Of a stretch of 64,000 bases of DNA, positions 121 through 43,435 are shown piece after piece. Origin of the DNA: Candidatus Latescibacterota bacterium (lineage in GTDB: Bacteria; Latescibacterota; UBA2968; UBA8231). Below the pieces are notes generated by a model. The model did not search any database, was not told the origin of the DNA, and saw only the letters and a program-made list of their open reading frames with translations. Position 1 is the first letter of the stretch, and the number at the start of each line of letters is the position of its first letter. The stretch lies in contig JAJEGS010000040.1 in the NCBI GenBank assembly GCA_022819745.1, positions 1 through 64,000 of the forward strand, given 5' to 3'. The translations under genes were made by a program, and so were the position numbers.

Positions 121-202
121 AAATGTAAGGGAATCAGACTCGGAACAATAGATTATGGAACGCCGTTTACCTGCGCAGTACTCGATGATTTCGGAGACGA
201 CC

Positions 203-27409: not shown

Positions 27410-27495
27410 AGAGAAAAATATCGTTGCGATGTCAGTAAAGGGCAACGAACTTTGCCCAGAGGATTTTATTGAAACCACAACCAAGGAGTCGGATT

Positions 27496-28302
27496 ATGGC
27501 ACTCAAGATGGGATACGCGACCCTGCGCTGGCGGCAGCCGGATTTGGCAAAGGCCCTGCCCGAGCTCAAAAAGGCCGGCTGGGACGGTTGGGAGGGGCGG
27601 TTACCGCTCGACTGGCTGGGGCCGCCGAAGCGGCTGAAGCAAGTGTGCGAGGACGCGGACATGCCGCTGTGCGTATTTACGGCTAGTGGCTCACCTGAAG
27701 ACCGCGACTGGGAGCACACCGAGCGCAACAAGCGGCGAATGGATTTCGCCGCGGAGATGGGCGTGGATTGCTTCATGTTTATGAGCGGTCGCAAGCCGGA
27801 AGGACGACCGACGGAACGCGCTGATATCGAGCGGGCGGCCGAGGGGGCCGAGCAGTGGGCCGAGTACGCGGCCCAGTACGGGCTGGAGCTAAGCTACCAC
27901 ATCCACACCAACTTGCTGGTGGATTCGGCCGAGGACTGGCGGCTGTACATGAGTTTGCTGGACAAGACCCGGCTGTGCATTGATGTCTCGCACGCCGAGT
28001 TGTGGGACTACGATCCAGTGCAGTCGCTGACGGATTTTTGGCACCAGCTCAACTACGTCCATCTACAGGACTATGCGTCTTGTACTGTGCGCGAGCCGGG
28101 GCGCTACAATCCCGAGTGGGTTTCAGTCGGCGAGGGCGAGTGCCTCGACTTTGCCGGGGTGCTCAACACGCTCGCCGAGCGGGGTTTTGACCGCTGGGTG
28201 ACCAGTTGTCCGGGCGAGCCAGCCTACGAGGGCGAGGACCCAGTCAGCGAGGCGCAGCGGAGTGCGGGGATGCGCCAGTATTTGCGCGGGTTGGGGTACT
28301 AG
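27496..28302 (+). CDS. sugar phosphate isomerase/epimerase-like TIM barrel
   Basis: 268 residues from the ATG at 27496, seven bases after AAGGAG. It belongs to the xylose isomerase/AP-endonuclease-2 TIM-barrel superfamily: KMGYATLRW opening strand, KKAGWDGWE, then metal-site residues in ELSYHIHTNLL, LCIDVSHAEL and YVHLQDYA. These proteins isomerise or epimerise sugars and inositol derivatives (IolE, IolI, hydroxypyruvate isomerase); the substrate cannot be told. No signal peptide. It shares a four-base tail-to-tail overlap with the long minus-strand array that starts at 28299. Confidence 0.75.
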   Translation: MALKMGYATLRWRQPDLAKALPELKKAGWDGWEGRLPLDWLGPPKRLKQVCEDADMPLCVFTASGSPEDRDWEHTERNKRRMDFAAEMGVDCFMFMSGRKPEGRPTERADIERAAEGAEQWAEYAAQYGLELSYHIHTNLLVDSAEDWRLYMSLLDKTRLCIDVSHAELWDYDPVQSLTDFWHQLNYVHLQDYASCTVREPGRYNPEWVSVGEGECLDFAGVLNTLAERGFDRWVTSCPGEPAYEGEDPVSEAQRSAGMRQYLRGLGY

Positions 28303-30548
28303 GGCGCTTTGAACATGTGCCGCATTTGCTCGGCTAGCTCTTTGGTTTTTTCCATCGTCTGTTGTTGCATGTGGTGTTGCCGCTTTAGGCGCTGGTAGTG
28401 CGCGTACTCGGCATCGGCGCGTTCGCGCTGACCCATTTTGAGCAGGAGATGGGATAGGGACCGACGGGCTTGTAGATCGCGGGGGTGGTGTTGCAAGATG
28501 CGCTCAAAGCGCTGGAGGGCTTGGCGATACTGACCCTGGTTGGCCTCTAAGGTCCCCATGCTGCGCAAGGCGTGCACATTGTCGGGGTCGAGTGCCAGCG
28601 CCGCGAGTAAATGACCTTTGGCTGTTTTCTCATCCCCCCGCTTTAACAGCAGATCGGCTAAATGGCACAACCCGGCGAGATGATCGGGTTGCTGGGCTAG
28701 TAGCTGCTGATAGGCTTGTTCGGCGCGCTCGGGCTGGTCCTGGTTTTCGTATAGCTGGCCTAGCAGATAGTGAGCCGACGGGGAGCCTAGTTCGAGCGCT
28801 TGGAGATAGGCAGCTTCGGCTTGCTCTAGCCGGCCGGCTGCGGCTTCGGTCCGCCCGAGACGGAGGTACAGGTGGGCTTGATCGGGTTGCCGCGCTAGGA
28901 GCTTTTGGTACTCGACCGCCGATTCTTGGAACTGGCCCCGCAGTCGGAGGAAATCGGCGAACTGGAGGCGGACATCGTCTTGGTCGGGATAGTGGTCGAG
29001 GAATTGCCGCCATGTGTGGGCGGCATCGTCGTAGCGCTGGGTCGCTCCGTACATATGGGCGAGGCCCAGCAGGGCACGGCGGTGGGACGGGGCTAGTTCA
29101 ACGGCGCGGCGGTAGTGCTGCAAGGCGTTGGTCTTCATGCCTTTGTTCTCATAGATAGCCGCCAGCGAGTAGTGGTGGAAGGCGGCCACGTGCGGACTGG
29201 TCGTCGCGCTTCCGGCGTTGGAGACCAATAGCAGTACGGCGAGGGCACCTGACGACAGGTACAAAGGTCTATGGCGCAAACCAGCCAAGGTGCAAGCACC
29301 GTAGGCGGCCAGCAGCAAGAGACAGGGCACGGCTGGTAAGCGATAGCGGCCCGTGACGAAAAACAACACCACTGACAGCATATAAACCCCTGCAAAGAGC
29401 AAGACGAGATAGGTCGCCGGAGTGCGGCGTTCTGGTTTCAGCAGGACATAGGCCACCCCGAGCAGGGCGAGGGCCGAGACCAAGCCAAAGGGAAACGCGA
29501 GGCCGTATTTCCACAGCAAAAGGCGCAGCAGCGGCGAGTACTCAGCGGCAAAGTACGGATCGGTATTGCGAGGGATCTCGGCCCCGTGCCAAAACAGATA
29601 GCTCTTGTGCAAGAGCAGGGCCAAATAGTCGCCCGGCTCGGTGCGTATATATTCCCAAGCTTTGCCCAAAAGGTAATTTGAGCCAACTCCCGGCTGAGTG
29701 ATGCCGGCCTCGCGTTGCGGCAAGTCAATTACGTCGCTCCATCCCGCTCCGGGCCGCGCCGCTACGGTGCGGTCGTAGTCCGGGTTGTTGCCGAGGTAGA
29801 AGTTGACCCCCGCGTTGAAGGAGATGAGTACCCACTCGCCGCCGACGATGCGGTTGCGCAGCGTCACTGGGCCTACCAGCATCAGCAGGCCGACGGCAAA
29901 AATCGCCACGTGGAGGGCGCGGCGACGGGTTGCCGCAGCGGGCCACCAGCGGTACATCCACCAAGCCGCTACCGGCGCAAAGAGCAACACGTTCGGCACG
30001 GCCAAGGTACCCAGTCCTAGGACGAGACCGGCAATAAGCGCGGGAAGTGTGCCGCCTTGACGCTGGCCCCACAACAAGACCAACAGCAGGACCGCGTCGA
30101 AAAGCACGGCCCAAGTCGTGGGCAAAAGTTCGCCCTCAAAATAGAGGAAGGGGCCGTACAGCGCCGCGCCTAGGGCCGCTATCCAACCCACCGTCGGCGA
30201 GAAGACCTCGCGCCCCAGCTTGAAGACGAGCAGGCAAGTGAGCGTGCCGGCTAGGGCTTGGAGCAGACGCGGGAGGTAGTAGTTTTCACCAAAAAAAGAA
30301 AAGAGAACGGCTAGGAAATACGGGTAAAAAGGAGCCTGCCAGAACGGCATCGGACGCCCAGCCCAAGTGCCGGTTGCCAGTTCGCGGGCGTATTCGGTGT
30401 AGCTTCTGGCATCGACAATGGGCGTGTCGAAAAAAGGACTGTCGGCGGCTTGGAATAGGTAGCCTAAGCGCAGGCCTAGGGCCAAGACAGCTAAGGCGAC
30501 CAGCTTGAGCCAGTGCAGCGCAAGCGCCTTACTTGCCCAGGCCAGCAT
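28299..30548 (-). CDS. GT-C glycosyltransferase (PMT/ArnT-like) with C-terminal TPR array
   Basis: 749 residues. The N-terminal 440 residues are polytopic with a first-loop D-A motif (DTPIVDARSYTEYAREL) where GT-C enzymes hold their catalytic acid, and GRYRLPAVP near the last helix, as in PMT-like proteins. From about residue 450, at least six TPR units follow (ALQHYRRAVELAPSHRRAL, AEQAYQQLLAQQPDHLAGL, ALQRFERILQHHP). Such enzymes use lipid-linked sugars on the outer face of the inner membrane, with the TPR part exposed to the periplasm to hold the acceptor. Its ATG overlaps the end of the OMP gene by 20 bases, so it closes the six-gene operon beginning at 42385. A role in glycosylating the secreted proteins made there is inferred. 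Confidence 0.75.
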   Translation of the reverse strand: MLAWASKALALHWLKLVALAVLALGLRLGYLFQAADSPFFDTPIVDARSYTEYARELATGTWAGRPMPFWQAPFYPYFLAVLFSFFGENYYLPRLLQALAGTLTCLLVFKLGREVFSPTVGWIAALGAALYGPFLYFEGELLPTTWAVLFDAVLLLVLLWGQRQGGTLPALIAGLVLGLGTLAVPNVLLFAPVAAWWMYRWWPAAATRRRALHVAIFAVGLLMLVGPVTLRNRIVGGEWVLISFNAGVNFYLGNNPDYDRTVAARPGAGWSDVIDLPQREAGITQPGVGSNYLLGKAWEYIRTEPGDYLALLLHKSYLFWHGAEIPRNTDPYFAAEYSPLLRLLLWKYGLAFPFGLVSALALLGVAYVLLKPERRTPATYLVLLFAGVYMLSVVLFFVTGRYRLPAVPCLLLLAAYGACTLAGLRHRPLYLSSGALAVLLLVSNAGSATTSPHVAAFHHYSLAAIYENKGMKTNALQHYRRAVELAPSHRRALLGLAHMYGATQRYDDAAHTWRQFLDHYPDQDDVRLQFADFLRLRGQFQESAVEYQKLLARQPDQAHLYLRLGRTEAAAGRLEQAEAAYLQALELGSPSAHYLLGQLYENQDQPERAEQAYQQLLAQQPDHLAGLCHLADLLLKRGDEKTAKGHLLAALALDPDNVHALRSMGTLEANQGQYRQALQRFERILQHHPRDLQARRSLSHLLLKMGQRERADAEYAHYQRLKRQHHMQQQTMEKTKELAEQMRHMFKAP

Positions 30549-33189
30549 ATAGAGTGATAAAGCCCTGGGTCAGGATTTCCGATTCGCGTTCGATGCTTTT
30601 GAAATCGCGCCAATCAGCTTTGAGACCCACTTGGGCAGATACCTCGTAGCCCAAGTAGGAGCTCACATTGGATAGCTGCAAGGCTCCGGCGATCCCGGTG
30701 AAATCGTTGTTGTCGCGCTTCATATCGTTGGCGAAAGAGTACTCAATTCCGGTTTGAATACGGGTGTTGCTGAGAATGGGAAACCCCAAGAGGAATCCCA
30801 CTATCTCGGTCAGCACTGTCTCCTCGTCGGCGGTGAACAGCCCCACGGTCTGGCGACGGTATTCGCTTTTCCAGCGCGGCTCGAGTTGGACGGTGCCCAG
30901 ATCGTAGCGGTAGCTGAGTTTGTTGATGACGCCAAAAAAGGAGTCCGTCTCGCGCAGGGCCGCGTCGTCGCGCTGGTGAAAAAGCTCCAAGTTGAGATAG
31001 TTATACGCCTCCAAGCCCCCTCGGTTGTAGTTGTGTCCGATCCAAGTGGTGTTGATCCAAGTGTCTTGGGCTAAAAGTGGATCTACTACCTTTTGTAGCT
31101 GACCGTCGCGCTGCGTGTTTTCGGGGAACCACTGGAGCAGGTCGTCCGGGATATTGTCTTGGGCCAGCTTGAGCATCTGCATGAAGCGGAAGCGCCCTTG
31201 CTGGGGATTGTCCCGGTCTAGGCTGAACAGAGCGTAGGAAGTGTGATTGCGCTTGTCGGCTGAGATCAGTTCCTCGCGCAGGTGCCCGACGGTCAAGCGG
31301 ACGTCCGGAGTCAGCCGGTATCCCATGTAGACGTTGAAGCCTCGGTGGTCTTTCTGATAGGGGTAGTCTGGGGATTCGTCGTTTTCAAAGCGGTCAACCC
31401 ACAGGTTGTTGTTCATGTCGATCCCGTAGAGGAAGTCGGGTCGGTCCACGCGGTGTCTGAGAAAGGCTTCGTCGTAGTCGGGAATGCCATTGGAGATGGT
31501 TAGGTTGTCGTTTTGGTTGAAGTCCGAGATGAAGTCGTAGTTCTCGTCCCAGCCGGGGAAGACCCGGCGATCGCCGGCTTGCGAGTCGGCGCGCACTAGG
31601 TCGGGTGCGCGGTCTTGGTCGTCGTTGTCCTCTACCAATTCGACCACGTGGAAGCGCTCGTTTTCGTAGTCGATATTGCCGGCCGAGCCGGTGACAAAGG
31701 TGCGGGTGTTGTAGAGCGGGTCCATGCTGTACGCTTCGCCAAAAAAGAACCAAGGATGAGCCACCTTGGACAGGTTGACCATCCAAGCTGGCTCGACTTG
31801 CTCGCCGGCCACGCCCGCCGATGTGGTGTGGCTGGTCCGCGTCACGCTGGGGTATTTGCGGTAGGCCACGCTCAGATCGTACTCGCCGTAGAAGTTGAAG
31901 CCGGCCACATCCCGCAGCTCTATGGTGGCCCCGATAATTTGAGTAGCCGTGGGCAGGCCGTACTCGAATTTGAGGATGCGCAGATTGGTGTTGTCCTGCA
32001 CATTGCCCTCGGCTTGCGCCACTAGCAGCAGCACGGGTTCGTCGCTGCGGTTGGTTTGGTTATTGGACGTCATCCACACCTGATAGTCGTTGCCAATAGT
32101 CATTTCGAACTCGACTTTGGCGATTTCTTCTTTGGGCCCCGAGGCCCGGTTGACGAAGGCGGGCGTGTCAAAGTCGTAGAGCAGGCGGATTTCTTCGGAC
32201 CCATCGGCCGAGATGAAGCCCTCTTGGACGAATCCCCCTTGGACGGCGGGTTCAAAGCGGATTTCCCGGCCGCGGTCAACAGTGCCGTCGTTGTAGGTAA
32301 TGATGATGTCCGAACCCACTGGGAAGAAGGCGGCTCCACCGCTGCCGTCTTCGGGCGAATCGTCGCGCAGGACTAGTTCGATAAAGGAAACGGTTTGGTT
32401 TTGGTCAACTGTCAAGGCCCCGGCAATGGGGTTGCCCTTAAAGCCGTCGCGCAGGGTATTGGACTGATGGGTGTTGACGAAGTGAACACCCATTTCGGTG
32501 AAGTCGCCGATCTGCGCGGTGGCCCGACCGCCCATTAGCGTGGTGAGGTTGGTGGTGAGGACTTCGGTGTTGTCGGTCGAGGCCCCGCCGGGCGAACTAA
32601 GGCGCGAGTAGATGACGGTACCTTGGTACTTGTCGGTCGCGATGTCGAACTGGACTCCGTCCCAAAAGGGTTTGGAAAAGCTCATGGGGGTGAGCGTGGT
32701 GCGCAGGCGATTCGACACCGTCAGGGCGTAGTGATACTGCCCCTTGCTGTCCGAGGCAATAGCCACGCCCGAAAACCAGTTATTAAAACGAGTGGCCTTG
32801 ACCAGCGAACTGCCAAATTGCCGCGGCTGAGTCTGCGAATTGCTAAAGATGAGCCAGCCACGGGTGATGGCGTTGCCAAATAGGTCGTAGTAATAGTCTC
32901 CTTCTAGCCGGATATCGACGTAGCGCTGGTACAGGTTGCGGGCGTAGTTGCTGTACTCCCACTGGCGCCAGCGGTACTCGTTGTAGAGCTCCTGCGGCAC
33001 GTACCACTTTTTAATGGTCGGATCCAGTGCGTCGAATAGGACGCCCGGGCCATAAGGAGCATAGCTGGTCTCGCCGCTCCCTCGGGGAACGCCCAGCCGC
33101 GTGCCATAGTCGGGTTGGCTGTAGGCCGGGTTTAGCACACAACTCAAGACCACCAAGACAGACGCAGTATTTAGCCTTCTCGCTTCCAT
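30529..33189 (-). CDS. large secreted beta-rich protein, probably outer-membrane barrel
   Basis: 886 residues with a signal peptide (VLVVLSCVLNPAYSQ). After it, a conserved start (VPQELYNEYRWRQWEYSNYA) and an alternating polar/hydrophobic strand pattern to the end; the terminal strand reads GFITLYAGLGK. Aromatic-rich strands and the C-terminal region point to an outer-membrane beta-barrel, but no known barrel family is recognised. Around residues 520-600 are acid-rich loops of calcium-binding type: DENYDFISDFNQND and DMNNNLWVDRFE, which follows the EF-hand spacing. The paralogue at 61329-63980 aligns along nearly its full length. Located between the FlgD-tailed protein (25-base gap) and the GT-C/TPR protein (overlap). 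Confidence 0.65.
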   Translation of the reverse strand: MEARRLNTASVLVVLSCVLNPAYSQPDYGTRLGVPRGSGETSYAPYGPGVLFDALDPTIKKWYVPQELYNEYRWRQWEYSNYARNLYQRYVDIRLEGDYYYDLFGNAITRGWLIFSNSQTQPRQFGSSLVKATRFNNWFSGVAIASDSKGQYHYALTVSNRLRTTLTPMSFSKPFWDGVQFDIATDKYQGTVIYSRLSSPGGASTDNTEVLTTNLTTLMGGRATAQIGDFTEMGVHFVNTHQSNTLRDGFKGNPIAGALTVDQNQTVSFIELVLRDDSPEDGSGGAAFFPVGSDIIITYNDGTVDRGREIRFEPAVQGGFVQEGFISADGSEEIRLLYDFDTPAFVNRASGPKEEIAKVEFEMTIGNDYQVWMTSNNQTNRSDEPVLLLVAQAEGNVQDNTNLRILKFEYGLPTATQIIGATIELRDVAGFNFYGEYDLSVAYRKYPSVTRTSHTTSAGVAGEQVEPAWMVNLSKVAHPWFFFGEAYSMDPLYNTRTFVTGSAGNIDYENERFHVVELVEDNDDQDRAPDLVRADSQAGDRRVFPGWDENYDFISDFNQNDNLTISNGIPDYDEAFLRHRVDRPDFLYGIDMNNNLWVDRFENDESPDYPYQKDHRGFNVYMGYRLTPDVRLTVGHLREELISADKRNHTSYALFSLDRDNPQQGRFRFMQMLKLAQDNIPDDLLQWFPENTQRDGQLQKVVDPLLAQDTWINTTWIGHNYNRGGLEAYNYLNLELFHQRDDAALRETDSFFGVINKLSYRYDLGTVQLEPRWKSEYRRQTVGLFTADEETVLTEIVGFLLGFPILSNTRIQTGIEYSFANDMKRDNNDFTGIAGALQLSNVSSYLGYEVSAQVGLKADWRDFKSIERESEILTQGFITLYAGLGK

Positions 33190-33214
33190 AAATTTTCCCT
33201 TTGGCTGGTGTACA

Positions 33215-36200
33215 CTAATAGACTACGGCCACGATGCGAACCAAGGCCGTGTCAGTGGCCCGGTCCGAATCGGCACCGAAATCAATCCGGCATATATAGA
33301 GTCCTGGCGGCACGGTGCGGTCAGCCGCATCGCGGCCATTCCAGCGAATTTGCTGGGGGCCTCCTGACACTTGGGTGCTGTTTTCCCATATCAGGCGCCC
33401 GTCCAGTGAGTAGAGGCGCAGACTTGCTTGGCGTGCTTGGGTCGCTTGGAAGATGGAAAATGCAACGGTTAGTTCGTCGTTGACCCCGTCGCCATTGGGC
33501 GTAAATGGGTTGGGAGCCAAGCGCAGGTCGCCGAGGACTTGCCCTCCTACGGGGATGCTCAGCGTTAGTTGGCGGCTATCTGTTAGCGCAGTGGCGTCGC
33601 CTGGTTCTACTTGCTGCCACAAGTTGCCGTCGGTGCCAGCGGCGGCGCGGCGGACAAAAGGCTTAAAGGTGGTTCCGTTGCGAAAGATGGCGGCGGCAAA
33701 GCGCAAGTGGATCAGGGGGCCTTGCCCCAAGATGGCACCGCGTTCGGCTCTTGGCAGCGCGCGGTAGGATGCGCTCGTCAGGGAATCGCCCAAGGCGTCA
33801 AAGGGCGATTGGGCCCCGCCGCCGCGCAGTTTGCGGAAATAGCGAATCGGCCCTTGTTCGGTTGGGGGCAAGTCATCGTACTCAGCACGGCCAGAGATCG
33901 CTTCTAAGCCGTCAGCGGTCTGCCGCAAGAAGAGGATAGCTCCGCGCTCGGCCTCGTTGAGCAGGCCGTAGGCCGCCTCGGTGATCAGGTCGCCGTCCTC
34001 GCCAACCATGACTTCGGCTCCTTGAGGGGTGATGCGATGGTAGGTCTGAACCGCCTGCTCTGCCGGTAGGGTTTGGTGTAGTTGGGGCAGCAGGACCCAG
34101 ATGGAGTCGGCGTGGTTGCGCCGCACTTGGGCGATGGCTCCAGCAGCGTCGGTCAGGTGGCCGTCGGCCGCTAGGGTAAACGTCTGCGGGGGATTTCCTT
34201 GACTTAGTTCTTCTTCGGTCCCCGTGCTTAGGCTCAACAGGTGCAGCGCGAGCCCGGGCGGAGCTTGCAGGAGGATTTCGTCAAAGCCTGGGGTGCGGTC
34301 GGCTGCCGGTTCGTCTATGAATACCGGACGCAGATACAGGTCGAATGTGTCTAACTGGCCGACCTCGGCCTGCGTAGGCCATACTTCGGCAGTGAGGGCG
34401 CGGGCTACGGGCGGGGCCAGTTCTACTTCGATCGAGCTGATGGAGGCGGCTTGCAGGCGATCTTGGCTGGTAAAGCGCACCTGCACCTGCATGTAATTGC
34501 GCAGCCCGGGGGAACGGACCCGGTCGCCCGGCTGTAGGTACTGCTGGCTCCAGGGACTCCAGCCGCTGCCGAGGGCAAAGGTGGTGTCGATAGGCCCTTT
34601 CCAACTGCTGATTAGCTTGTCCCATTCTTCTTTGGTTTTCTCGTTGCCATTGACGTCGAAATGGCGAATTTGCTGCACCAGCAGATCGCCGGTGCGCGTG
34701 CGCACTTCCGCCGTCGTGCCGGGTGGGTGGGTGCCGGGAGGCGGATCCCAGTAGATGGCACCGAAGTTGCGCGGTCCCGGCAGGCGGATGATATCGGACA
34801 CCAGTGAAGCTTGGCTGACAAACCCCTCAGTGTAGAGCAGGACTTCGGTCAGGTCGTAGAAAAAGCCCGAAGTCCGCGCGATGCCCGGCAGGCGCAGGTT
34901 GAGGAAGCGGATATCTAGGGCTGGGTCAAAGCGGTCGGCGGCGCGATTGAATCCCCCTTCCATGCGGTCGGGTAGGCTGACCTGTCGCCACCGAAGTCGG
35001 CCATTGGGATCGCGGCTGCCGTCGGCCACCTCGGTGATGTAGCCGGGAATAAAGGGAACGGCCAAGCGCATGGCATCGAGCCAGACGCGGGCACCAATAT
35101 CGACGGTGAGAATGCCAGCGGTGGGATTGGTGCTAAACCACGCTGGCATGCGGAATGTGGTGTTCCAGTCGCCGTCAAAGCCCCCAGCCGGGACTTCCGG
35201 TCCGGTAAAGCTAACGCTGCCGCCCCCGTCAATTAACTTGGGCGATAGGTTGTCGCCCCAGCCCCAGACTTCGACTTCGGCCAGCCGGGGCCGCTCGCGA
35301 ATATAGTACTCTTTGCGGCCCTGCTGTTCTTGGGGGAGGCTCTCGTAAATGGCCTGCTCCACCGGCTCCTCAAAGCCGACGTCGTCGCGGATGTAGTAGA
35401 GTATATCGCCTCGTTCGTCGGCCGGCAGGGCATCCCACGCGGCCTGATCGATTTGGTGTGCCCGCCCCAGCTTGCTGTCGCCGATGAGAATGCGCACGGT
35501 CTGAGCCATGCGGCCGGTCCACTCGGTGCGGCCGTCGTCGTCTTCGGCAAAGCCGGGCGTGTCCTCAGAAGAAAACGCCATGGTCCGCTGATCCGTATTG
35601 GGAGCCCGGGTTTGGCCGACCACCTTGAACTGGAGCACGCGGCTTTGGGCTTGGATGAGCTTCTGCTGGGGAGCTAGCATGACGCGGAACTGGCGGAAGG
35701 GATCGCCCAAGGTCTCATCGACAAAGTGCAGCACTACCTTCTCGACCACGAGCGTGCGGCCCAAGTCGATCTCGATCCACCACTTGTCTGGAGTGGCCGC
35801 TAAGTCTGGTTCCCAAAAAGTGTCGCGGTCGCCATCGACAATATGGGGGGCTAGGGCTTCGTTGGAACCTACCCGGCTGACGCCGACGCGCTGGACATAG
35901 TCGTACACTGGGAAGGCGATTTTGTCCTTAGCTCCAAATTCGCGCGTTGATTCTACCTCCGTGCGTTCGTTGCGCAGGCTCAGGGTCACGGTTTTGCCGT
36001 CGCCGCTGAGGGTGGTATCGACGATGGTTAGGAGTCGGCCGTCAAGGGGGAGCTGACTGTCGTTGCCGGGGAAGCGTTTGAAGTCTCGATCGAGAAATTT
36101 GATCAATTGCTCAGACTTGCTGAAGGTAAAGCTGCCGTCCGCTTCCAGCGCCGGGGTGCGTTGGAGATTCATAATCGCCCGATCCGCCTTGCGGATGCCC

Positions 36201-36475
36201 GGTTGGTCCACGGGTTTGGCAAATACCGCGCGGTCTTCGGCGATGATGTCGTACACGTGGCGAAAGAAATGGGGTTTGACCGTCCCGTCTGGATGTACAT
36301 CGACCACGTGAGAAGGCCCGGTCCAGTGTCGCCAGTAGGAAGCCTGATCGACGATGATGCGATCTCCCTGCAGACGATGGCCTAGGGGCGCTTGGGCACT
36401 GACTTGCTGGAGGGCCAAGCAACCAAAAGCTAAGGCCCAAATCTGGTTCCAACGGCTGTAGTGTTTGCGGTTCAT
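33215..36475 (-). CDS. large secreted discoidin/FlgD-domain protein
   Basis: 1086 residues from the ATG at 36475, with GGAGAG just upstream; the TTG four codons earlier is less likely. The signal peptide ends LALQQVSAQA. Discoidin-like units occur near residues 200-330 (IVDGDRDTFWEPD, IEIDLGRTLVVEKVVLHF) and 420-560 (FDGDWNTTFRMP). The last 100 residues are FlgD-like (APNPFTPNGDGVND, RLYSLDGRLIW, PPGLYICRI). At least five short units of the form YxxLPxxExG are spread along it, for example YESLPQEQQGRKEYY and YRALPRAERGAIL. The shared string TAEVRTRTG links it to its three relatives. Exported; surface binding or adhesion is inferred. Third FlgD-tailed gene in the operon and separated by the PPIase gene from the others. 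Confidence 0.75.
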   Translation of the reverse strand: MNRKHYSRWNQIWALAFGCLALQQVSAQAPLGHRLQGDRIIVDQASYWRHWTGPSHVVDVHPDGTVKPHFFRHVYDIIAEDRAVFAKPVDQPGIRKADRAIMNLQRTPALEADGSFTFSKSEQLIKFLDRDFKRFPGNDSQLPLDGRLLTIVDTTLSGDGKTVTLSLRNERTEVESTREFGAKDKIAFPVYDYVQRVGVSRVGSNEALAPHIVDGDRDTFWEPDLAATPDKWWIEIDLGRTLVVEKVVLHFVDETLGDPFRQFRVMLAPQQKLIQAQSRVLQFKVVGQTRAPNTDQRTMAFSSEDTPGFAEDDDGRTEWTGRMAQTVRILIGDSKLGRAHQIDQAAWDALPADERGDILYYIRDDVGFEEPVEQAIYESLPQEQQGRKEYYIRERPRLAEVEVWGWGDNLSPKLIDGGGSVSFTGPEVPAGGFDGDWNTTFRMPAWFSTNPTAGILTVDIGARVWLDAMRLAVPFIPGYITEVADGSRDPNGRLRWRQVSLPDRMEGGFNRAADRFDPALDIRFLNLRLPGIARTSGFFYDLTEVLLYTEGFVSQASLVSDIIRLPGPRNFGAIYWDPPPGTHPPGTTAEVRTRTGDLLVQQIRHFDVNGNEKTKEEWDKLISSWKGPIDTTFALGSGWSPWSQQYLQPGDRVRSPGLRNYMQVQVRFTSQDRLQAASISSIEVELAPPVARALTAEVWPTQAEVGQLDTFDLYLRPVFIDEPAADRTPGFDEILLQAPPGLALHLLSLSTGTEEELSQGNPPQTFTLAADGHLTDAAGAIAQVRRNHADSIWVLLPQLHQTLPAEQAVQTYHRITPQGAEVMVGEDGDLITEAAYGLLNEAERGAILFLRQTADGLEAISGRAEYDDLPPTEQGPIRYFRKLRGGGAQSPFDALGDSLTSASYRALPRAERGAILGQGPLIHLRFAAAIFRNGTTFKPFVRRAAAGTDGNLWQQVEPGDATALTDSRQLTLSIPVGGQVLGDLRLAPNPFTPNGDGVNDELTVAFSIFQATQARQASLRLYSLDGRLIWENSTQVSGGPQQIRWNGRDAADRTVPPGLYICRIDFGADSDRATDTALVRIVAVVY

Positions 36476-36500
36476 GAGGCTCTCCAAGTTGTGCGACCGT

Positions 36501-38156
36501 TCAGAACGCGGTGAGAAAATCGTCGGGTAGGGCCGCAGCTAATTGCTTTTGGTTCACTTGGATCTGATCGGCGTATTGCTGGCGCAGGGTTTCTATATAG
36601 GCTTGAAACCGCTCCCGCTCCTCGGCCCGGCGCAGTATGTCGCCAATTTGCCGGCGGACTTGGGCAAAAGGCATGCGTTCCCCCGGCTGGCGACGGACGA
36701 TCTCGAATACGGAGAAGCCGTCGTGGACTTGTACCGGCCCGACCAACTCGTCTGGCTGCGCGGCTAGGATATGGGGTACCAAGTCCGAAGTTTTCTCCAT
36801 GGGCAAGACGCCGCTCCGCGCCCGCGCCCCTCGGCGTTTGCTGCGTTCTTGGGCTAGGGCGGCGATGTCGGCCCCTGCTTCGATTTGCCGCCGTATGGCT
36901 AGGGCTTCTTCCTCGGTCTCCACTAGCACTTCGGCCACGTCGATCTGGTCCCGGCGCTGGAAGCGCTGGGTCTGCTCGTCGTAGTAGCGGCGCACGGCCT
37001 CTGGGGCGATGGTGATGGATGCCACTACTTTTTGCTGGCGCAGTTGGCTGAGGACGACCTCTTCGCGCAGTTGCTGCCGCACTGCTTCGAGGGCTTCGCG
37101 GTCAATCAGCGCCTCGTGGCGGGCCGCGGCCGCAAAGATGTAGGGCTGGCGCAGAAAGCGCTCGGCAAGTTGGACCAAGGCGGCGCTGTCGGCTGCGGCG
37201 TTGATGTTGCGGTTTTTGAATTGGTCGAGTAGCTCTCCTAGGGGCACTTGGCCGCCCGCAAACTTGAACAAAGGCGTCCGTTCTTCCTCTGGCGTTAGTT
37301 CCAAGGTCGCCAACGGCTGGCCTTTTTCTAGCAGGAGGCGCAGTCCCGGCTCGTGGAGGTCCCAGTCGTATTTGTCGGCCAATTGCTCGGCCCGGGCCAC
37401 CCGCGTTTCGCCGAGCCTTTCCTCTTGGAGTTCTTGGAGGATCTCGTCCCGAAAGTCGAAATAGGATACTGGTCGTTCCTCGGTAAAGCGCACGACGCAA
37501 AAGCCGGCGGAGTGGGGGAGCACGGGCGATAAGGCCCCCAAGGGCAAATCGCGGAACAGCGAATCGGGGAGGCCCATGCGGCGGATGGATTCCACCCGGA
37601 GCCAGCCTAGTTCGCCCCCGTTGACTGCGTCGGGTGTAATGGAGTAGCGGGCGGCCACTTCGCCAAATGGAGTGCCGGTGGCCAACTCGGCCACGGCTTG
37701 TTCTAGTTCCGGCCGCGCCTTAGTCATAATGCCCCAAGTCATCCGCTCGAATGTGCGGTGGAGGCCCCTGCGCTCGAATCGCTGTTTGATCTCATCCTCT
37801 TCAACGAGGGGCGGTTGCACGGGTTTGCGTTTGAGATAGAGGGCGACCAAATGCCGACGGATTCTGCGCTCTAGTTGGCGCTGGACTGCGGCCGCGGTAT
37901 CCAAACCGAGGGCTTGGGCTTCCAGCCACATGAGGTGGTAGTCGATGAGGGGTTGGAGGTACTCGCGCCGCGCCGCCGGGCCTTCTTGGCGGCTCCGCTG
38001 GCTTTCGTTTAGCCCTAGGACGTAGGATCGGAGATCCTCGGCGGTGATGGACCGCGTGCCGATCTGAACCACGGTGGAGGATTCCTGCTCACCACAGCCC
38101 CACGAGAAGGCTCCGATCAGGGCGCAAGTTATTGTCGCGATGCGTACTCTGTTCAT
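36501..38156 (-). CDS. parvulin-type peptidyl-prolyl isomerase lipoprotein (SurA/PrsA-like)
   Basis: 551 residues. Lipoprotein signal with C21 (IGAFSWGC). A SurA_N-like helical part comes first (ITAEDLRSYVLGLNESQR, YLQPLIDYHLMWLEA). Two parvulin-like domains follow: one near 130-225 (ITPDAVNGGELGWLRVESI, LPLGALSPVLPHSAGFCVVRF) and another near 390-490 (VLPMEKTSDLVPHI, QPDELVGPVQVHDGFSVFEIV). It should act in the periplasm to fold outer-membrane or secreted proteins. Its ATG is one base after the stop of the preceding discoidin gene, so it is translationally coupled to it, and it lies in the middle of genes for its likely clients. Confidence 0.88.
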   Translation of the reverse strand: MNRVRIATITCALIGAFSWGCGEQESSTVVQIGTRSITAEDLRSYVLGLNESQRSRQEGPAARREYLQPLIDYHLMWLEAQALGLDTAAAVQRQLERRIRRHLVALYLKRKPVQPPLVEEDEIKQRFERRGLHRTFERMTWGIMTKARPELEQAVAELATGTPFGEVAARYSITPDAVNGGELGWLRVESIRRMGLPDSLFRDLPLGALSPVLPHSAGFCVVRFTEERPVSYFDFRDEILQELQEERLGETRVARAEQLADKYDWDLHEPGLRLLLEKGQPLATLELTPEEERTPLFKFAGGQVPLGELLDQFKNRNINAAADSAALVQLAERFLRQPYIFAAAARHEALIDREALEAVRQQLREEVVLSQLRQQKVVASITIAPEAVRRYYDEQTQRFQRRDQIDVAEVLVETEEEALAIRRQIEAGADIAALAQERSKRRGARARSGVLPMEKTSDLVPHILAAQPDELVGPVQVHDGFSVFEIVRRQPGERMPFAQVRRQIGDILRRAEERERFQAYIETLRQQYADQIQVNQKQLAAALPDDFLTAF

Positions 38157-38157
38157 G

Positions 38158-40212
38158 TTAGTAGGCTACGTATAGAGGGTGTGCCCGCAGGTCGTCGCCC
38201 TGGTCCCCAGCCACGGTTATGCCCAACAAGTACACGCCTGGGGGGACGAGTTGACCACCCGCGGCTCGCCCGTCCCAACTAAGGGCGTAGCGACCGTTGC
38301 TGAGCGCCGTCTGCTGTAGGGTGTGTACCAGCCGACCCGACAGGTCGTACAGGCGCACCGCGACGGCACCGGCTTTGGTCAGTGCCAAGATGTTATAGGC
38401 GATAGCGACTTGGTCGTTGATCCCATCGCCGTTGGGCGTAAAGGGGTTGGGCGTCAGTTCGAGGGCATCAATCAGCCGTTCGCTGCGGATTATCGAGGGA
38501 CTGAGCACTGTGGTGCCGGAGCGGGTGGCTTGGTCCTCGTCCCCCAAGGTGGTGCTATTGCCCGAGGTGGAGTTTTGAAACGAACCGGGTTCGCTCGACA
38601 GCGAGGCCTGCCCGCGAAATTCGGTGCTGAAGGCCAACACGGACGCGCGAAACCTGATTTTCAGCAGACTGTCATCGGCTTGGATAGGCGGAAAGCGCAC
38701 GCTGAAGTGGTCCTCTGCAATGGCGTTGATGGCAAGCCCCGAACCGCCAGCCGTATCGCCTTGCGCAAAGGCGTGGGAGGCGACTAGCTCGCCTTGGGCA
38801 TCGAGAATTTCTACCTGTTCCACCTGTTCCACTCGGATGGGGGTAGTTATCGCAAAAGTATCGAATCCCAGCAGGTCCGGCGAATCCATGTGCATCCGCA
38901 CGGCATAGGTAAAGGACGTAGAGGTTGAAGCCTCTACTTGGCGAGGGAAAATCTCGGCGACGAATTCGTCGGCCAGCGGTGGAGTCAAATACGAAAGGGA
39001 GATGTGCTCAAGGCGGCGCGCCGATTGGATATCATTGCTCTGCGCGCTGACGCGGAATTGGAGGAAGTGCCGCGGCGAAGGGGAGATGATCGGAGTGCCT
39101 TGGGGGGACGTGCCCTCGTCGAGCGGATAAGGAGGGCTCCAAGGGCTCCAATTTTCCAAATCGTCCTTGATCGAGCCTTTGGACCACGTGACGCCGTTAT
39201 CATCTACTAATGGGAGCCGTTCGTACTCGTCTAGGCGCATGGGCTCAGTGGGATCGGCAATGGAGAAGGGAATCTCTGGGTCGGTGCGCTTGTCGGTGCG
39301 CTGGCGGTGAAAAATAAAAGGCGTGTCGTCATTGCCGCTGCGCGTGGAAATCAGCAGAGTGGACTGGGCCGAGTCCCCCACGGCTTTTTCCACCCAGCGA
39401 ATGTGCCCCCAAGCGGCAAGGCCCGTGGCAAAAATATCCGAGAAGTACGTAGCCGTCGGCAAAAAGCCAGTGCCGTAGATTTCGATCTCGTCTATTTCAA
39501 AGGGGATGGGCGTGGCCGAGCGCAGGCGGAAGGAGCGAATATAGCGGGGCGGGTCGAATTCGATGTCAACGACGGGTTTAGTGTTTTGGGCTTCCTCCAC
39601 TATGGGTGCTCCCCACACTGGAAAACCATCGGCCGTGAGATTGAGGCCGTCGTTGACGAACAGCTCAAACGCGCGCAAAAAGTCGTTCTGAAAGGCGGCT
39701 GTGGGCGCGGGATGGACCGTATTGCGCGGGTAGAAACGAAAGCGATTGACGCCGAAGCGGGCCCCTAAGTCGCCGATGATGAGGGTGCCGCGCACGTCGC
39801 CACTTTTGCGCTCAAAGGCTTGGGTCTCACCGCCGGCTAGGTCGCTGAGGATTTCGGCGAGGGCCTCGGTTAGATCCTCGCGGGTGAAGTCGGTGGTGAA
39901 GCGCAGCACCGTGGGGGCCGCTATGGTGCCGCCGCGTTCGAGGGTACCCGAAGCGATGTTTTCACCCTCTTGCAGTTGGCGGGGTGCTAAGACTCGCTGG
40001 GAGAAATCGATGAGTTCGCCTGGAGCGTTGCCTATTAGCACGGCGTTGGGATTGACCAAGCTGCGGTACTCTGGGTCTAGCGTACTGACAGCAGCACCGG
40101 TGCCATCCCAGTCGATGGGGGCATCTAAGCCCACACTGAGCGTATCTAGGGCCTCGACCGGGGCCATGAGGACGAGGGCTGCTAGGCTGTGAGCAAGTAG
40201 GCTTCTCAACAC
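38158..40212 (-). CDS. secreted discoidin-like protein with FlgD Ig-like tail
   Basis: 684 residues from the GTG at 40212. I prefer this start because AGGAG (40220-40224) is seven bases upstream and the protein then opens with a signal peptide (MLRSLLAHSLAALVLMAP, cleavage after VEA). The frame is open back to 40263 but overlaps the previous gene. A beta-rich region with discoidin-like strands (RYIRSFRLRS, EIEIYGTGFLP) is followed by LISTRSGND (the counterpart of the RTRTG string), a WSPWSPPYPL segment, SPSPRHFLQFRV, and a FlgD_ig end (LTPNPFTPNGDGIND, RLYDLSGRLVHTL, PPGVYLLGI). Ten bases separate it from the upstream discoidin gene, one base from the PPIase. Confidence 0.75.
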   Translation of the reverse strand: MLRSLLAHSLAALVLMAPVEALDTLSVGLDAPIDWDGTGAAVSTLDPEYRSLVNPNAVLIGNAPGELIDFSQRVLAPRQLQEGENIASGTLERGGTIAAPTVLRFTTDFTREDLTEALAEILSDLAGGETQAFERKSGDVRGTLIIGDLGARFGVNRFRFYPRNTVHPAPTAAFQNDFLRAFELFVNDGLNLTADGFPVWGAPIVEEAQNTKPVVDIEFDPPRYIRSFRLRSATPIPFEIDEIEIYGTGFLPTATYFSDIFATGLAAWGHIRWVEKAVGDSAQSTLLISTRSGNDDTPFIFHRQRTDKRTDPEIPFSIADPTEPMRLDEYERLPLVDDNGVTWSKGSIKDDLENWSPWSPPYPLDEGTSPQGTPIISPSPRHFLQFRVSAQSNDIQSARRLEHISLSYLTPPLADEFVAEIFPRQVEASTSTSFTYAVRMHMDSPDLLGFDTFAITTPIRVEQVEQVEILDAQGELVASHAFAQGDTAGGSGLAINAIAEDHFSVRFPPIQADDSLLKIRFRASVLAFSTEFRGQASLSSEPGSFQNSTSGNSTTLGDEDQATRSGTTVLSPSIIRSERLIDALELTPNPFTPNGDGINDQVAIAYNILALTKAGAVAVRLYDLSGRLVHTLQQTALSNGRYALSWDGRAAGGQLVPPGVYLLGITVAGDQGDDLRAHPLYVAY

Positions 40213-40222
40213 ACTCAGGCTC

Positions 40223-42385
40223 CTAGTAGGCGACCGAAATGGTACCGACTTGTTCTTCTGCACCTTCGTCGGTATCTAGCCGAATGCGGTAGATATAGAC
40301 GCCTGGGGACACCAGACGGCCGTCGGAGCGGCGGCCGTCCCAAGAATACTCTACTATTCCGGTTTTGATCTGCGTGGTAGCCAAGGTCTGCACCTCGTGG
40401 CCCGATAGGTCGTACAGAGCCACTTGCAGGGGCCGGCGCGCGACCACTTCGCGCACGTCAAAGGAAAGTTGCATGGTGTCGTTGACGCGGTCGTTGTTGG
40501 GGGTAAAAGGGTTGGGATGCACTCGCACATCCGTCAACAGCCGACCCCCTACGCGGGTGCGCACGGCCAGCACATCGCCACCGTAGCGGAAGGTAGCGTT
40601 GCCCGGCTGGACTTGCTGCTTGATGCGGTCGGGATCGTCGCTGTTGTACACCCAGCCGGCAAATTCAGTGCCGAAGCGCAGGACCGGCACTTGGAAGGCA
40701 ACCTCCACTTGCTTGAAGCGGTCGGTTTCTGGGCTTGACAGCTTGCGATCTAGCGACACGATGATGCGGTCGGTTAGCACTTGGGGCGGAAAGGTCTCCA
40801 GATCGACCTCTACTCCGCCGATTTTGACGTGATAGACGGTGTCAACTTGGGTGTGGGTGCCGATTTCGAGCCGGTCGAAGCCCGTGTCGCCGGTCTGGAA
40901 ATCCGGACTCACTACGTAGGTGAAGCGCTGGGAACGGGCGTCGTCGACTTCAATCGGCCAGATCTCGCCCAGTAGGGCGGAAGCCGATAGGGAGTGGGCT
41001 AGCTGAAACTGGAGCTCGTCGATACGCGGAGCTTCGGTTTCAGTGGCAAACAAGGTGATCTGCAACTGCATGTAGCGCCGTGGAGAGGGCGACTGTAAGA
41101 CCGTGCCGTCGGCCCAAGCTGACGCTTCCTGCGCGTGGTCGCGCAAGCCGTCCTCAAAGTCGTAGGGAGGCGACCAAAAGCTCCAGTGTTCGCGGTCGTA
41201 CAGCGGGTGTTCGCGCTCGCGGACGGGCAGGCTGAAGTGCTCGTCAAAGCTAATTTCCTCGGCTTCGCCGGTAATGGCGTTGGGTTCCCAGTAGATATGG
41301 GGGTTGTGGTCGGTGCCCGTGCGGGTGCGGATTTCGACTTGGGTGCCGGGGGGGCGCTGGCCACTCCAGCGAATTTTGCCCCAGTTGATGGGTTGGCCAA
41401 AGTCGAGGATGTCGGTTAGATAGCGCGCTTTGCGCACAAAGCCTTGTCCGTAGATTTCCACCTCGGCGATTTCCCAGTCGCGCACCGGGTCCAAGGCGCG
41501 GATGGCGACCCAGCGGATGTGCCGCAGGGGAAAGTGAAAATCGACCACCACATCGAGGTTTTCGCGCACGCTGCGCAGAATGCTATAGGCCGAATCGTTG
41601 CTCACCCGATAGCCGCCAAGGCCGGCCGAGGAGATGATTTTGTGCCAGCGCAATCCTTTGGGGACCGCGAAGACATCGTCGGCGATGGGGGCGCTGTTGT
41701 CAGCGACGCCAATTTCGTACCACTCGAGAAAGTTGGCGGCAAAGCTCTCCTCGCCAAATGTGTCGGGATCGGGTTTGGGATCGGCCATGGCGGCGATGAT
41801 ATGAGCGTCTTCGGTCTTGCTGAGCCGAGGATAGAAGCGGATGCGGTTGATGGGCATTTCAGCGCCGAAATTGGTAATGGTATTGTTGCGGAAGCCGCGT
41901 CCCACTCCCGGGGGTGCCCCCACGCGCTGGACGAAAATGCGGAACATGGCCGAGGTGCGGTCGCCGTCGTAGGCCCGCAGGGTGCTGGGCAGAGTCATGC
42001 CCATGAAACCCGAACTCTCGCCCTGGGTGACGCGGATATTGCCGCCTAGATCGTGAAAGGGTACTTGACTCTGGCCATTTTGGTCCCAACTGACGATGTG
42101 GGTCAGGTTCAAGTTGGGGTCAACCCAAGACGGAATCATGGCTCCATCGGCGTAGTTGATCAGGGTATCGGCACCAATCCACTGGGGGGACGTGCCCACT
42201 GACTCGGTTCGCAAGACTTGGCCGTCGGTGCCGTACACGGTGTAGAAGCCGCCTTCTTCGCTTTCCAAAGCAAGGGGGATGGTCCAGGGGTTGCCATCCT
42301 CTCCACCCAGCGCGAACTCGGCCCGATCGCCCAGTGCCGGACCCGCCAGCGCAACGACCAGCCATAACACCCCGAGTTTTCTCAT
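40223..42385 (-). CDS. secreted discoidin-like protein with FlgD Ig-like tail
   Basis: 720 residues from the ATG at about 42385 (MRKLGVLWLVVALAGPALG), a good signal peptide; the frame begins 13 codons earlier but there without a ribosome site. It resembles the protein at 38158: RFYPR motif, DFHFPLRHIRWVAIRALDP, AEVEIYGQGFVRKARYLTDI, QVEIRTRTGTD, WSFWSPPYDFEDG, SPSPRRYMQLQITLF, and the FlgD_ig end (VHPNPFTPNNDRVND, ALYDLSGHEVQTL, VSPGVYIYRIRL). First gene of the six-gene run that reads through to 28299. A hairpin terminator for the upstream CBM9 gene lies 38 bases before it, so this run needs its own promoter or read-through. Confidence 0.75.
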   Translation of the reverse strand: MRKLGVLWLVVALAGPALGDRAEFALGGEDGNPWTIPLALESEEGGFYTVYGTDGQVLRTESVGTSPQWIGADTLINYADGAMIPSWVDPNLNLTHIVSWDQNGQSQVPFHDLGGNIRVTQGESSGFMGMTLPSTLRAYDGDRTSAMFRIFVQRVGAPPGVGRGFRNNTITNFGAEMPINRIRFYPRLSKTEDAHIIAAMADPKPDPDTFGEESFAANFLEWYEIGVADNSAPIADDVFAVPKGLRWHKIISSAGLGGYRVSNDSAYSILRSVRENLDVVVDFHFPLRHIRWVAIRALDPVRDWEIAEVEIYGQGFVRKARYLTDILDFGQPINWGKIRWSGQRPPGTQVEIRTRTGTDHNPHIYWEPNAITGEAEEISFDEHFSLPVREREHPLYDREHWSFWSPPYDFEDGLRDHAQEASAWADGTVLQSPSPRRYMQLQITLFATETEAPRIDELQFQLAHSLSASALLGEIWPIEVDDARSQRFTYVVSPDFQTGDTGFDRLEIGTHTQVDTVYHVKIGGVEVDLETFPPQVLTDRIIVSLDRKLSSPETDRFKQVEVAFQVPVLRFGTEFAGWVYNSDDPDRIKQQVQPGNATFRYGGDVLAVRTRVGGRLLTDVRVHPNPFTPNNDRVNDTMQLSFDVREVVARRPLQVALYDLSGHEVQTLATTQIKTGIVEYSWDGRRSDGRLVSPGVYIYRIRLDTDEGAEEQVGTISVAY

Positions 42386-42422: not shown

Positions 42423-42459
42423 AAAAAAAGCCCGTGTTCCAGCGTGGAACACGGGCTTT
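42423..42459 (-). terminator. intrinsic terminator of the CBM9-like gene
   Basis: On the minus strand, AAAGCCCGTGTTCC (42459-42446) and GGAACACGGGCTTT (42440-42427) form a perfect 14-bp stem with a five-base loop, followed by a run of Ts (complement of the A-run at 42423-42429). It sits 50 bases after the stop at 42509. Confidence 0.9.
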
Positions 42460-42508
42460 CGGGAGTTGCCCTCTAGCTGGATTGAGGTGATTCCAGCGGA
42501 GATGTGAC

Positions 42509-43435
42509 CTACTTAAAGTGGGACTTGATGCGGCCCCAGCTATCGTCCTCGACCGAGGTAGAGGCGACAAAGGCCGGATCTGGTTCGGCTAGGAACCAAT
42601 CGTTGACGGACGAGCAGCAATTGTCAAGGGTGCTCCAGTAACCGCAGCATCCGGGGGTGCGATAGTTGTTGAAATCGCCGTCGTTGTCGATCTGGACGAT
42701 GGAAATGTGGATGATCTGACCTTCTTCCAGATCCCATACCTCCACATCGTCGGGCTGGTAGCCGCCCTCTAGGCCTACGGGGTACGAGCCGATGGGCGTG
42801 AGACCCATTTCGTAGTAATAGGTGCTCTCGCCGAATTCGTCGCCATCCCAAGTGTAGTTGAATTCGAGCCAATCAGTGCCGGGCCATATCCACTCGGTGC
42901 CGGTCAAATCACCTGGCCGCAACCAGAACCAGTCGCCGAGGGTCGGATGGACGGGCACCGCGAAGTTGTAGCGGGAATTGATGCCGATGTTCTCGTCGTT
43001 GATGTCGACGTAGCCGCCGTCATCGGCATAGGCGTCGTGGTTGTAGGTAAACGACACCTCCCACGAATCGTCCTCGCTCCAGTGGCTGGTGCGATCCATG
43101 TTGTGCTCGTCGTCAAAGGTCTGGGTGGCCATGTAGATCCTGTTGTCCGTCTCGTTCCAGCCGACCCGATGCAACATGCTGAAATCGGTGACGTCCCAGT
43201 CGGCGTTGGTCCAGCCTTCGGGGACTAGGCCGCGGGCGTCGTTGAAGACCGAGTTGTCGATGCCATAGGAAGCTGGCACCCCGTCCCAGTCGCCGTGATT
43301 GCCGTCAATGGTCGGGGTTGCCCCGTCGGGAAACTGGACGACAAACCAAACCGTGCCGGCGTCCCAGTGCGCTTGGCCCGTATTGGGCAGGGCCACTAGG
43401 GCGAAAACTGCAAAGAGAATAGCAAAGCGCTTCAT
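42509..43435 (-). CDS. secreted CBM9-like carbohydrate-binding protein
   Basis: 308 residues, exported (MKRFAILFAVFALVALPNTGQA). The mature start matches family 9 carbohydrate-binding modules (TIDGNHGDWDGVPASYG), followed by a beta-rich region with many Trp, Asp and Tyr residues (DNRIYMATQTFDD, DSWEVSFTYNHDAY, YYYEMGLTPIGSYP). Two cysteine clusters (PGCCGYW and DNCCSSVNDW) near residue 265 suggest disulfides. Full SD (GGAGG), a promoter at 43502-43530 and its own terminator mark a single-gene, well-expressed unit. No catalytic domain is present, so it is probably a sugar-binding or cell-surface protein. Its neighbours are FlgD-tailed proteins and a DUF6785 membrane protein. Confidence 0.8.
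   Translation of the reverse strand: MKRFAILFAVFALVALPNTGQAHWDAGTVWFVVQFPDGATPTIDGNHGDWDGVPASYGIDNSVFNDARGLVPEGWTNADWDVTDFSMLHRVGWNETDNRIYMATQTFDDEHNMDRTSHWSEDDSWEVSFTYNHDAYADDGGYVDINDENIGINSRYNFAVPVHPTLGDWFWLRPGDLTGTEWIWPGTDWLEFNYTWDGDEFGESTYYYEMGLTPIGSYPVGLEGGYQPDDVEVWDLEEGQIIHISIVQIDNDGDFNNYRTPGCCGYWSTLDNCCSSVNDWFLAEPDPAFVASTSVEDDSWGRIKSHFK

Follow-up and report, generated by a model that had tools for sequence, protein, structure and literature searches.

Surface proteins of the type 9 secretion system (T9SS) that carry a type B C-terminal domain (CTD) are, in Bacteroidota, encoded beside an outer-membrane barrel of the PorP/SprF family; a genome has several such pairs, and the T9SS core is encoded at other sites. 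Flavobacterium johnsoniae is reported to have 12 type B substrates, nine of which adjoin a sprF-like gene (PMC12618676), and binding of SprF to SprB has been reported (PMC9143113). Here we analyze a comparable locus in a 64,000-nucleotide stretch of a Candidatus Latescibacterota bacterium (hereafter the window; contig JAJEGS010000040.1 of assembly GCA_022819745.1). The locus encodes exported proteins with T9SS-type tails (D proteins) next to OMP, a barrel-like protein of a separate family. The operon represents a module that Latescibacterota carry in many copies. Tentatively, with a probability of about 0.4, we read it as a capture module present in many duplicated copies, the D proteins of which would be exported by the T9SS and held at the cell surface by OMP.

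A multi-copy module in Latescibacterota

Inspection of the open reading frames revealed six genes within 28299-42385, all on the minus strand. The features of the window that concern the module are the following (signal peptides of the operon products were judged by eye):

42509-43435, minus strand: x7, leading gene of the module, encoding a CBM9-like secreted protein (family profile) with the tag TSVEDDSWGRIKSHF at its C-terminus
42426-42460, minus strand: hairpin with a T-run and a 16-pair stem, between x7 and the six-gene operon, ahead of D1
40223-42385, minus strand: D1, exported protein with a CHU_C/FlgD_ig tail (Pfam; homology to D2)
38158-40212, minus strand: D2, exported protein with a CBM32/discoidin domain and a PorU-like tail (structure model)
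36501-38156, minus strand: PPI, double-parvulin protein, probable lipoprotein foldase
33215-36475, minus strand: D3, large exported F5/8-type-C protein with a CHU_C tail, directly 5' of OMP (Pfam)
30529-33189, minus strand: OMP, outer-membrane-barrel-like, with two EF-hand-like loops
28299-30548, minus strand: GT-C (PMT_2) membrane enzyme with TPRs (Pfam)
43553-45493, minus strand: DUF6785/DUF6784 membrane protein, recurrent neighbor (402.5 bits)
61329-63980, minus strand: second OMP paralogue, in the same cluster as the first and a row of the OMP alignment, with its context truncated at the window edge
155-2854, plus strand: further D protein of the D cluster (FlgD_ig over cut-off with 31.7 bits; CHU_C and F5/8 type C just under)

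The gaps measure 10 bases (D1/D2), 1 base (D2/PPI), and 25 bases (PPI/D3 and D3/OMP), while OMP and the GT-C gene overlap by 20 bases. These values assume internal starts (ATG 36475, ATG 42385, and GTG 40212), the longest open reading frames reaching 36487 (D3), 40263 (D2), and 42424 (D1). With the internal starts we reproduced the arrangement of six minus-strand genes, gaps, and overlap given by an initial annotation, made from the sequence alone, which had taken the operon for a surface machine outside the type 9 system. The surface-type gene set proved to be recurrent; the placement outside the type 9 system was not supported (see below). The six-gene span also omits the upstream x7, which recurs with the module, as well as the second OMP and the further D protein of the window.

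Recurrence was assessed in 49 OMP-centered loci of at least 20 kb. D genes were present in all 49, PPI in 47, x7 in 37, GT-C in 27, UnbV/FG-GAP genes in 24, and DUF6785 genes in 18; at least two D genes were found in 47 loci and at least two OMP genes in 25. Among 131 OMP genes, the 5' neighbor was D in 90 cases, OMP in 20, PPI in five, and x7 in two, the remaining 14 being other genes, genes on the other strand, or locus edges. The 3' neighbor was GT-C (34), PPI (30), OMP (20), x7 (12), or another (35), and median gaps were 12.5 bases on the 5' side and 6 bases on the 3' side. The 49 loci, the 131 OMP genes, and the 43 x7-to-D junctions described below are redundant sets that include orthologues from close genomes and overlapping loci (L100-L117 overlap L035, L036, L045, L062, L066, L087, and L096). 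As an observation of its own, UnbV/ASPIC FG-GAP cluster proteins adjoin the module in their 24 loci, e.g., L105 and L112.

Copy numbers rest on a sample of 60 windows of 20 kb (1.2 Mb), evenly spaced along the 6.27-Mb single-contig genome G005; matches from genome searches can be pieces. The sample contained 10 OMP genes (two cut at the ends of sampled windows), 25 D cores, and 44 D-type tails, as well as PPI (4), x7 (6), GT-C (10), UnbV/FG-GAP (8), and DUF6785 (15), which extrapolates to about 52 OMP and 131 D genes per genome. In the eight sampled windows with OMP, as compared to the 52 without, D was found in 7 vs. 6 (one-sided Fisher p = 3e-5), PPI in 4 vs. 0 (1e-4), x7 in 4 vs. 2 (0.002), DUF6785 in 5 vs. 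7 (0.006), UnbV in 3 vs. 4 (0.04), and GT-C in 3 vs. 5 (0.06). OMP distances correlated with those of same-locus D, PPI, and x7 (r = 0.66, 0.71, and 0.74; n = 41, 30, and 31) and of GT-C, UnbV, and DUF6785 (r = 0.61, 0.62, and 0.84; n = 27, 13, and 13), and each r exceeded all 300 permutations. This pattern suggests that each module diverged as a whole.

A search of 40 genomes with the window's OMP detected relatives in 24, every one a member of family f1, and the number of matches per genome ranged from 5 to 32 (pieces possible; best 23 candidates per genome scored). The nearest of the genomes compared, also of f1, has 28% of sampled 31-mers in common with the window. In a profile of 64 Latescibacterota genomes (best 14 candidates per genome scored), OMP was present in 39, i.e., in 25/25 genomes of f1, 0/22 of f2-f4, 14/15 of f5-f9, and 0/2 of f10. 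D was found at E ≤ 1e-10 in 35 of the 39 genomes with OMP and in none of the 25 without. No description of the module was found among the best-matching open-licence PMC literature on Latescibacterota; "SusC" and "Por secretion" occur 0 times in PMC4454575, and "secretion" and "T9SS" 0 times in PMC12993501.

Properties of the module proteins

Structures were predicted for OMP and D2. The AlphaFold2 model of OMP (886 aa; pLDDT 72.8) comprises 13 long strands at 615-884 and further strands at 141-244 and 404-489, and Foldseek matches include outer-membrane barrels. The initial annotation had called the protein barrel-like with calcium-type loops, and the moderate model would agree with the former. 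The latter correspond to two EF-hand-like loops, in which D548, N550, D556, D591, N593, N595, and E602 are invariant across the 50 aligned rows; D552 is present in 49 of them and D599 in 42, with E at this position in eight. With hits considered up to E 0.1, OMP matched neither a Pfam nor an NCBIfam family, SprA_N/TIGR04189 and the PorP/SprF family (TIGR03519, NCBIfam) included, and no PDB relative was found by sequence up to E 1. The closest named matches were Latescibacterota metagenome-assembled genomes (94-99% for full-length OMP), and homologues bearing a name, among the matches listed, were "hypothetical protein". An usher-like 24-strand topology was set aside as suggestive only; many barrels score equally.

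The D proteins carry a conserved C-terminal sorting domain, a feature of T9SS cargo. D1, D2, and D3 had been annotated as discoidin proteins with FlgD_ig tails. CHU_C exceeds the Pfam cut-off in all three and FlgD_ig in two. The discoidin assignment stands for D3, the only one of the three with F5/8 type C above cut-off, and for D2, residues 100-265 of which match CBM32 structures by model; D1 falls below the Pfam cut-off. The C-terminal tail of the D2 model resembles PorU. D1 and D2 are 28.6% identical over 595 aa, and D3 aligns with both at about 35% over 149-158 residues only. The 155-2854 product aligns with D3 (35.6% over 624 residues) and with D1 and D2 (28% over 492 and 638 residues), and through these chained alignments the four were treated as one family.

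PPI matches Rotamase_2 (63.8 bits, residues 385-501) and Rotamase_3 (34.5 bits, residues 147-227) behind a lipobox-like SWGC judged by eye, in keeping with the SurA/PrsA-like foldase originally proposed. The proposed GT-C enzyme likewise shows TPRs and PMT_2, the latter just over cut-off (26.7 vs. 26.1 bits). Outside the operon, the window encodes a second PMT_2 and TPR protein of 604 aa (52355-54169).

Searched against the PDB with a limit of E 10, the x7 family profile matched a single sequence, that of CBM9 1i82 (E 0.0013). Seven of 26 family members gave a match to CBM9_1 (PF06452), the best at 2.6e-5, the window's x7 being without one. x7 proteins end in TAVExxSWGRIKAxF, with W, I, and K kept in 26/26 rows of proteins only 22-38% identical to the window's x7, and of the 70 proteins in the cluster, 52 carry the tag by a strict pattern. 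In a DNA search for (mostly [ST])WG[RKHQNS]IK, with the backward-read pattern as control, G005 and G008 yielded 40 and 28 sites (backwards 0 and 0), as compared to 0, 1, 0, and 0 in G027, G030, G048, and G056 (backwards 1, 2, 2, and 0). Among 34 sites read in 30 loci, which partly overlap so that a few sites count twice, a stop followed within 15 codons in 31 and after 24 in one, while two run on (L226 and L239). Ten of the 32 stopping sites were without an x7 match; they represent eight distinct sites, two too short to test, leaving at least six tag-bearing proteins outside x7 (L232, L242, two in L243, L247, and L253). By eye, some tag-bearing proteins in L166 resemble TolB-type propellers. 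As G048, of family f7, has OMP without the tag, the tag is not universal with OMP. TAVExxSWGRIKxxF may be a signal for sorting or anchoring that has not been described before.

A hairpin with a T-run occurs at 38 of 43 x7-to-D junctions vs. 15 of 151 other same-strand gaps (test gaps up to 640, control gaps 60-640, lengths unmatched). Grouped at 70% identity, the numbers are 15/17 vs. 13/101, with all members positive in 14 groups, and the stems differ in sequence. Where x7 precedes other genes, the picture is mixed, with hairpins in 2/2 cases ahead of OMP, 2/2 ahead of UnbV, 2/7 ahead of others, 0/2 ahead of GT-C, and 0/1 ahead of PPI. We infer that the hairpin causes partial termination, which would leave x7 in excess.

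Secretion route and competing explanations

The initial annotation had placed the module outside the T9SS, which the genomes of relatives do not support. SprA_N was detected in 60 of 64 Latescibacterota genomes irrespective of OMP presence (607 bits in G005 vs. a cut-off of 200), and full-length PorU exceeded its cut-off in six of six genomes tested (579-634 bits). The same six hold 35-148 CHU_C matches each (best 150 scored). A reading outside the T9SS was rejected on the basis of the SprA and PorU encoded by relatives.

Fewest assumptions are needed for a surface module that has been duplicated and in which the D proteins would travel via the general T9SS and stay with the co-encoded barrel. 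In the capture reading, x7, a presumed secreted CBM9-like binder, would be made first and probably in excess owing to the terminator-like hairpin after it. The parvulin lipoprotein would fold the D proteins in the periplasm, where the GT-C/TPR enzyme, if encoded, might glycosylate them. Using their CHU_C/FlgD-type tails, D proteins would then cross the outer membrane via the host's ordinary T9SS and be held at the surface on the co-encoded, putatively calcium-binding barrel. Their CBM32-type domains might catch glycans or other ligands, and the barrel may take captured ligands in.

Several observations weigh against capture. The OMP model is only moderate, and its conserved Asp/Asn-rich part falls below pLDDT 50 in places. 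A Plug or TonB-receptor match was sought for OMP in Pfam and NCBIfam and not found, and six relatives already hold 20-28 Plug matches each. GT-C is present in just 27 of the 49 loci and reached only p = 0.06 in the sample. L150, one of the eight sampled OMP windows, has OMP at its edge and no D. All six tested module genes co-diverge with OMP, so that D-OMP contact is not singled out; co-divergence of D and OMP (r = 0.67) was dropped as contact evidence for this reason. D tails are no more alike inside a locus than across loci (mean likeness 0.398 vs. 0.392), and tail-OMP recognition was dropped as well. The four OMP genomes lacking D at E ≤ 1e-10 are all four genomes of the deep family f7. 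There, the D-like gene beside OMP matches the D core weakly (39-61 bits), and two of six loci (L215 and L221) show no D. Finally, glycoside hydrolases and polysaccharide lyases were not among the 25 commonest of the 127 Pfam families matched by 118 of 230 non-core neighbor proteins (near-duplicates and proteins >900 aa left out). Because glycan enzymes are absent from these commonest families, no clear catabolic partner emerges, and a polysaccharide-utilization locus was rejected.

That glycan enzymes do not stand out among the commonest neighbor families also fits the strongest rival, an adhesin-display pair like type B CTD proteins and PorP/SprF, in which OMP anchors or shuttles D adhesins and moves no ligand. 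We regard this as a serious possibility, roughly one in three. The CHU_C tails, the 90 of 131 OMP genes that have D as their immediate 5' neighbor, the sprF-adjoining substrates of F. johnsoniae, and the SprF-SprB complex speak for it, as does locus L212 of f7, where D and OMP are accompanied by a gene of the PorV family. OMP, however, is 886 aa long without a PorP/SprF match in NCBIfam, the tails do not follow OMP once the D core is accounted for (partial r = 0.13), and 47 of 49 loci hold at least two D genes. We lean slightly towards capture because of the carbohydrate-binding folds of x7 and D2, the many diverged modules, and ExbB/ExbD in a deep-branching locus.

These latter genes belong to f7. 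Four of six f7 loci (L212, L213, L214, and L220) carry a D-type-tailed gene two genes before the first OMP. L212 reads D, PorV-family barrel (64.8 bits, cut-off 90; L212 was the locus scanned for PorV), OMP, OMP, a long TPR protein, DUF5683, a small lipoprotein-like protein, and ExbB (100 bits). L220 shows one OMP, followed by ExbD (116 bits) and DUF4159, and L213 and L214 contain like-sized genes in the same order up to the contig ends. The D-like/PorV-like/OMP/TPR run with ExbB (L212) and ExbD (L220) is a possible ancestral energized form. A bolder reading, which we consider less likely than not, holds that the module represents a new class of outer-membrane machine. A calcium-binding barrel family would receive CBM32-type proteins exported by the T9SS, together with abundant CBM9-like proteins that end in the new short C-terminal sorting tag TAVExxSWGRIKxxF. 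The machine would go back to an ancestral locus powered by protons (with D, PorV-family, OMPs, TPR, ExbB, and ExbD, pieced together from L212 and L220) and have multiplied into some 50 parallel modules, through which the lineage would chiefly interact with its environment.

A structural surface layer, with x7 or D as bulk subunit and OMP as membrane foot in the manner of SlpA/SDBC-type layers, appears improbable: two SDBC entries and SlpA are among Foldseek's four best OMP matches and the hairpin suggests x7 excess, but these matches show 9% identity, with TM values of 0.19-0.26 when scaled to the query length, and are absent from the best 50 rows of a second structure comparison, and about 50 diverged copies per genome fit one lattice poorly. 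Equally improbable is OMP as an export channel for D and x7 in place of SprA, as equal or higher scores are reached by many unrelated barrels and D tails are of T9SS type in genomes of relatives that encode SprA and PorU.

Neighboring genes and comparison with known systems

Four genes of the DUF6785 cluster lie in the window (43553-45493, 50348-52324, 55986-58010, and 58024-59979), of which the Pfam scan covered the first. Extrapolation from the G005 sample gives about 78 per genome. A known transporter identity was not adopted, no convincing PDB relative being found by sequence, and the open-licence PMC literature yielded no paper on either DUF6785 or the C-terminal tag. Elsewhere, the window encodes a phytanoyl-CoA dioxygenase with HEAT repeats (7492-8973), an MFS transporter with HEAT repeats (25115-27484), and a TPR protein with a weak TonB_C-like C-terminus (16575-19193; 23.4 bits vs. 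a cut-off of 24.6).

If the G005 sample holds, OMP and D genes make up about 7% of the genome, an arithmetic estimate from sample counts and typical gene lengths. SusCD genes occupy a share of similar scale in Bacteroidota genomes. The module gives access to the question of how Latescibacterota interact with their environment, and its short C-terminal tag is directly testable. Outside Bacteroidota, it would also extend the T9SS theme by a new barrel-partner family, one that matches no Pfam or NCBIfam model despite its abundance.

Like SusC/SusD loci, the module combines a multi-copy outer-membrane barrel with glycan-binding-type proteins; unlike them, its barrel has no Plug or TonB-receptor match, its D proteins have T9SS tails and no SusD match, and glycan enzymes are not prominent nearby, judging by the 25 commonest of 127 neighbor families. 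The GT-C/TPR protein, presumably akin to TMTC-like proteins, shares with GT-C/TPR proteins a PMT_2 membrane part followed by TPRs, here predicted from sequence and in 27 of 49 loci only. CBM9 and CBM32 are shared through the match of the x7 profile to 1i82 and through D2 residues 100-265, respectively; here, however, these modules are parts of stand-alone secreted operon proteins with putative sugar binding. Compared with the type B CTD and PorP/SprF pairs, OMP is unrelated to PorP/SprF by NCBIfam profile and differs in size, and the module has several D genes per locus, its own parvulin, and often GT-C/TPR and CBM9-like genes. With about 52 extrapolated OMP copies, as compared to the 12 type B substrates of F. 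johnsoniae (PMC12618676), the module differs from these pairs in number as well.

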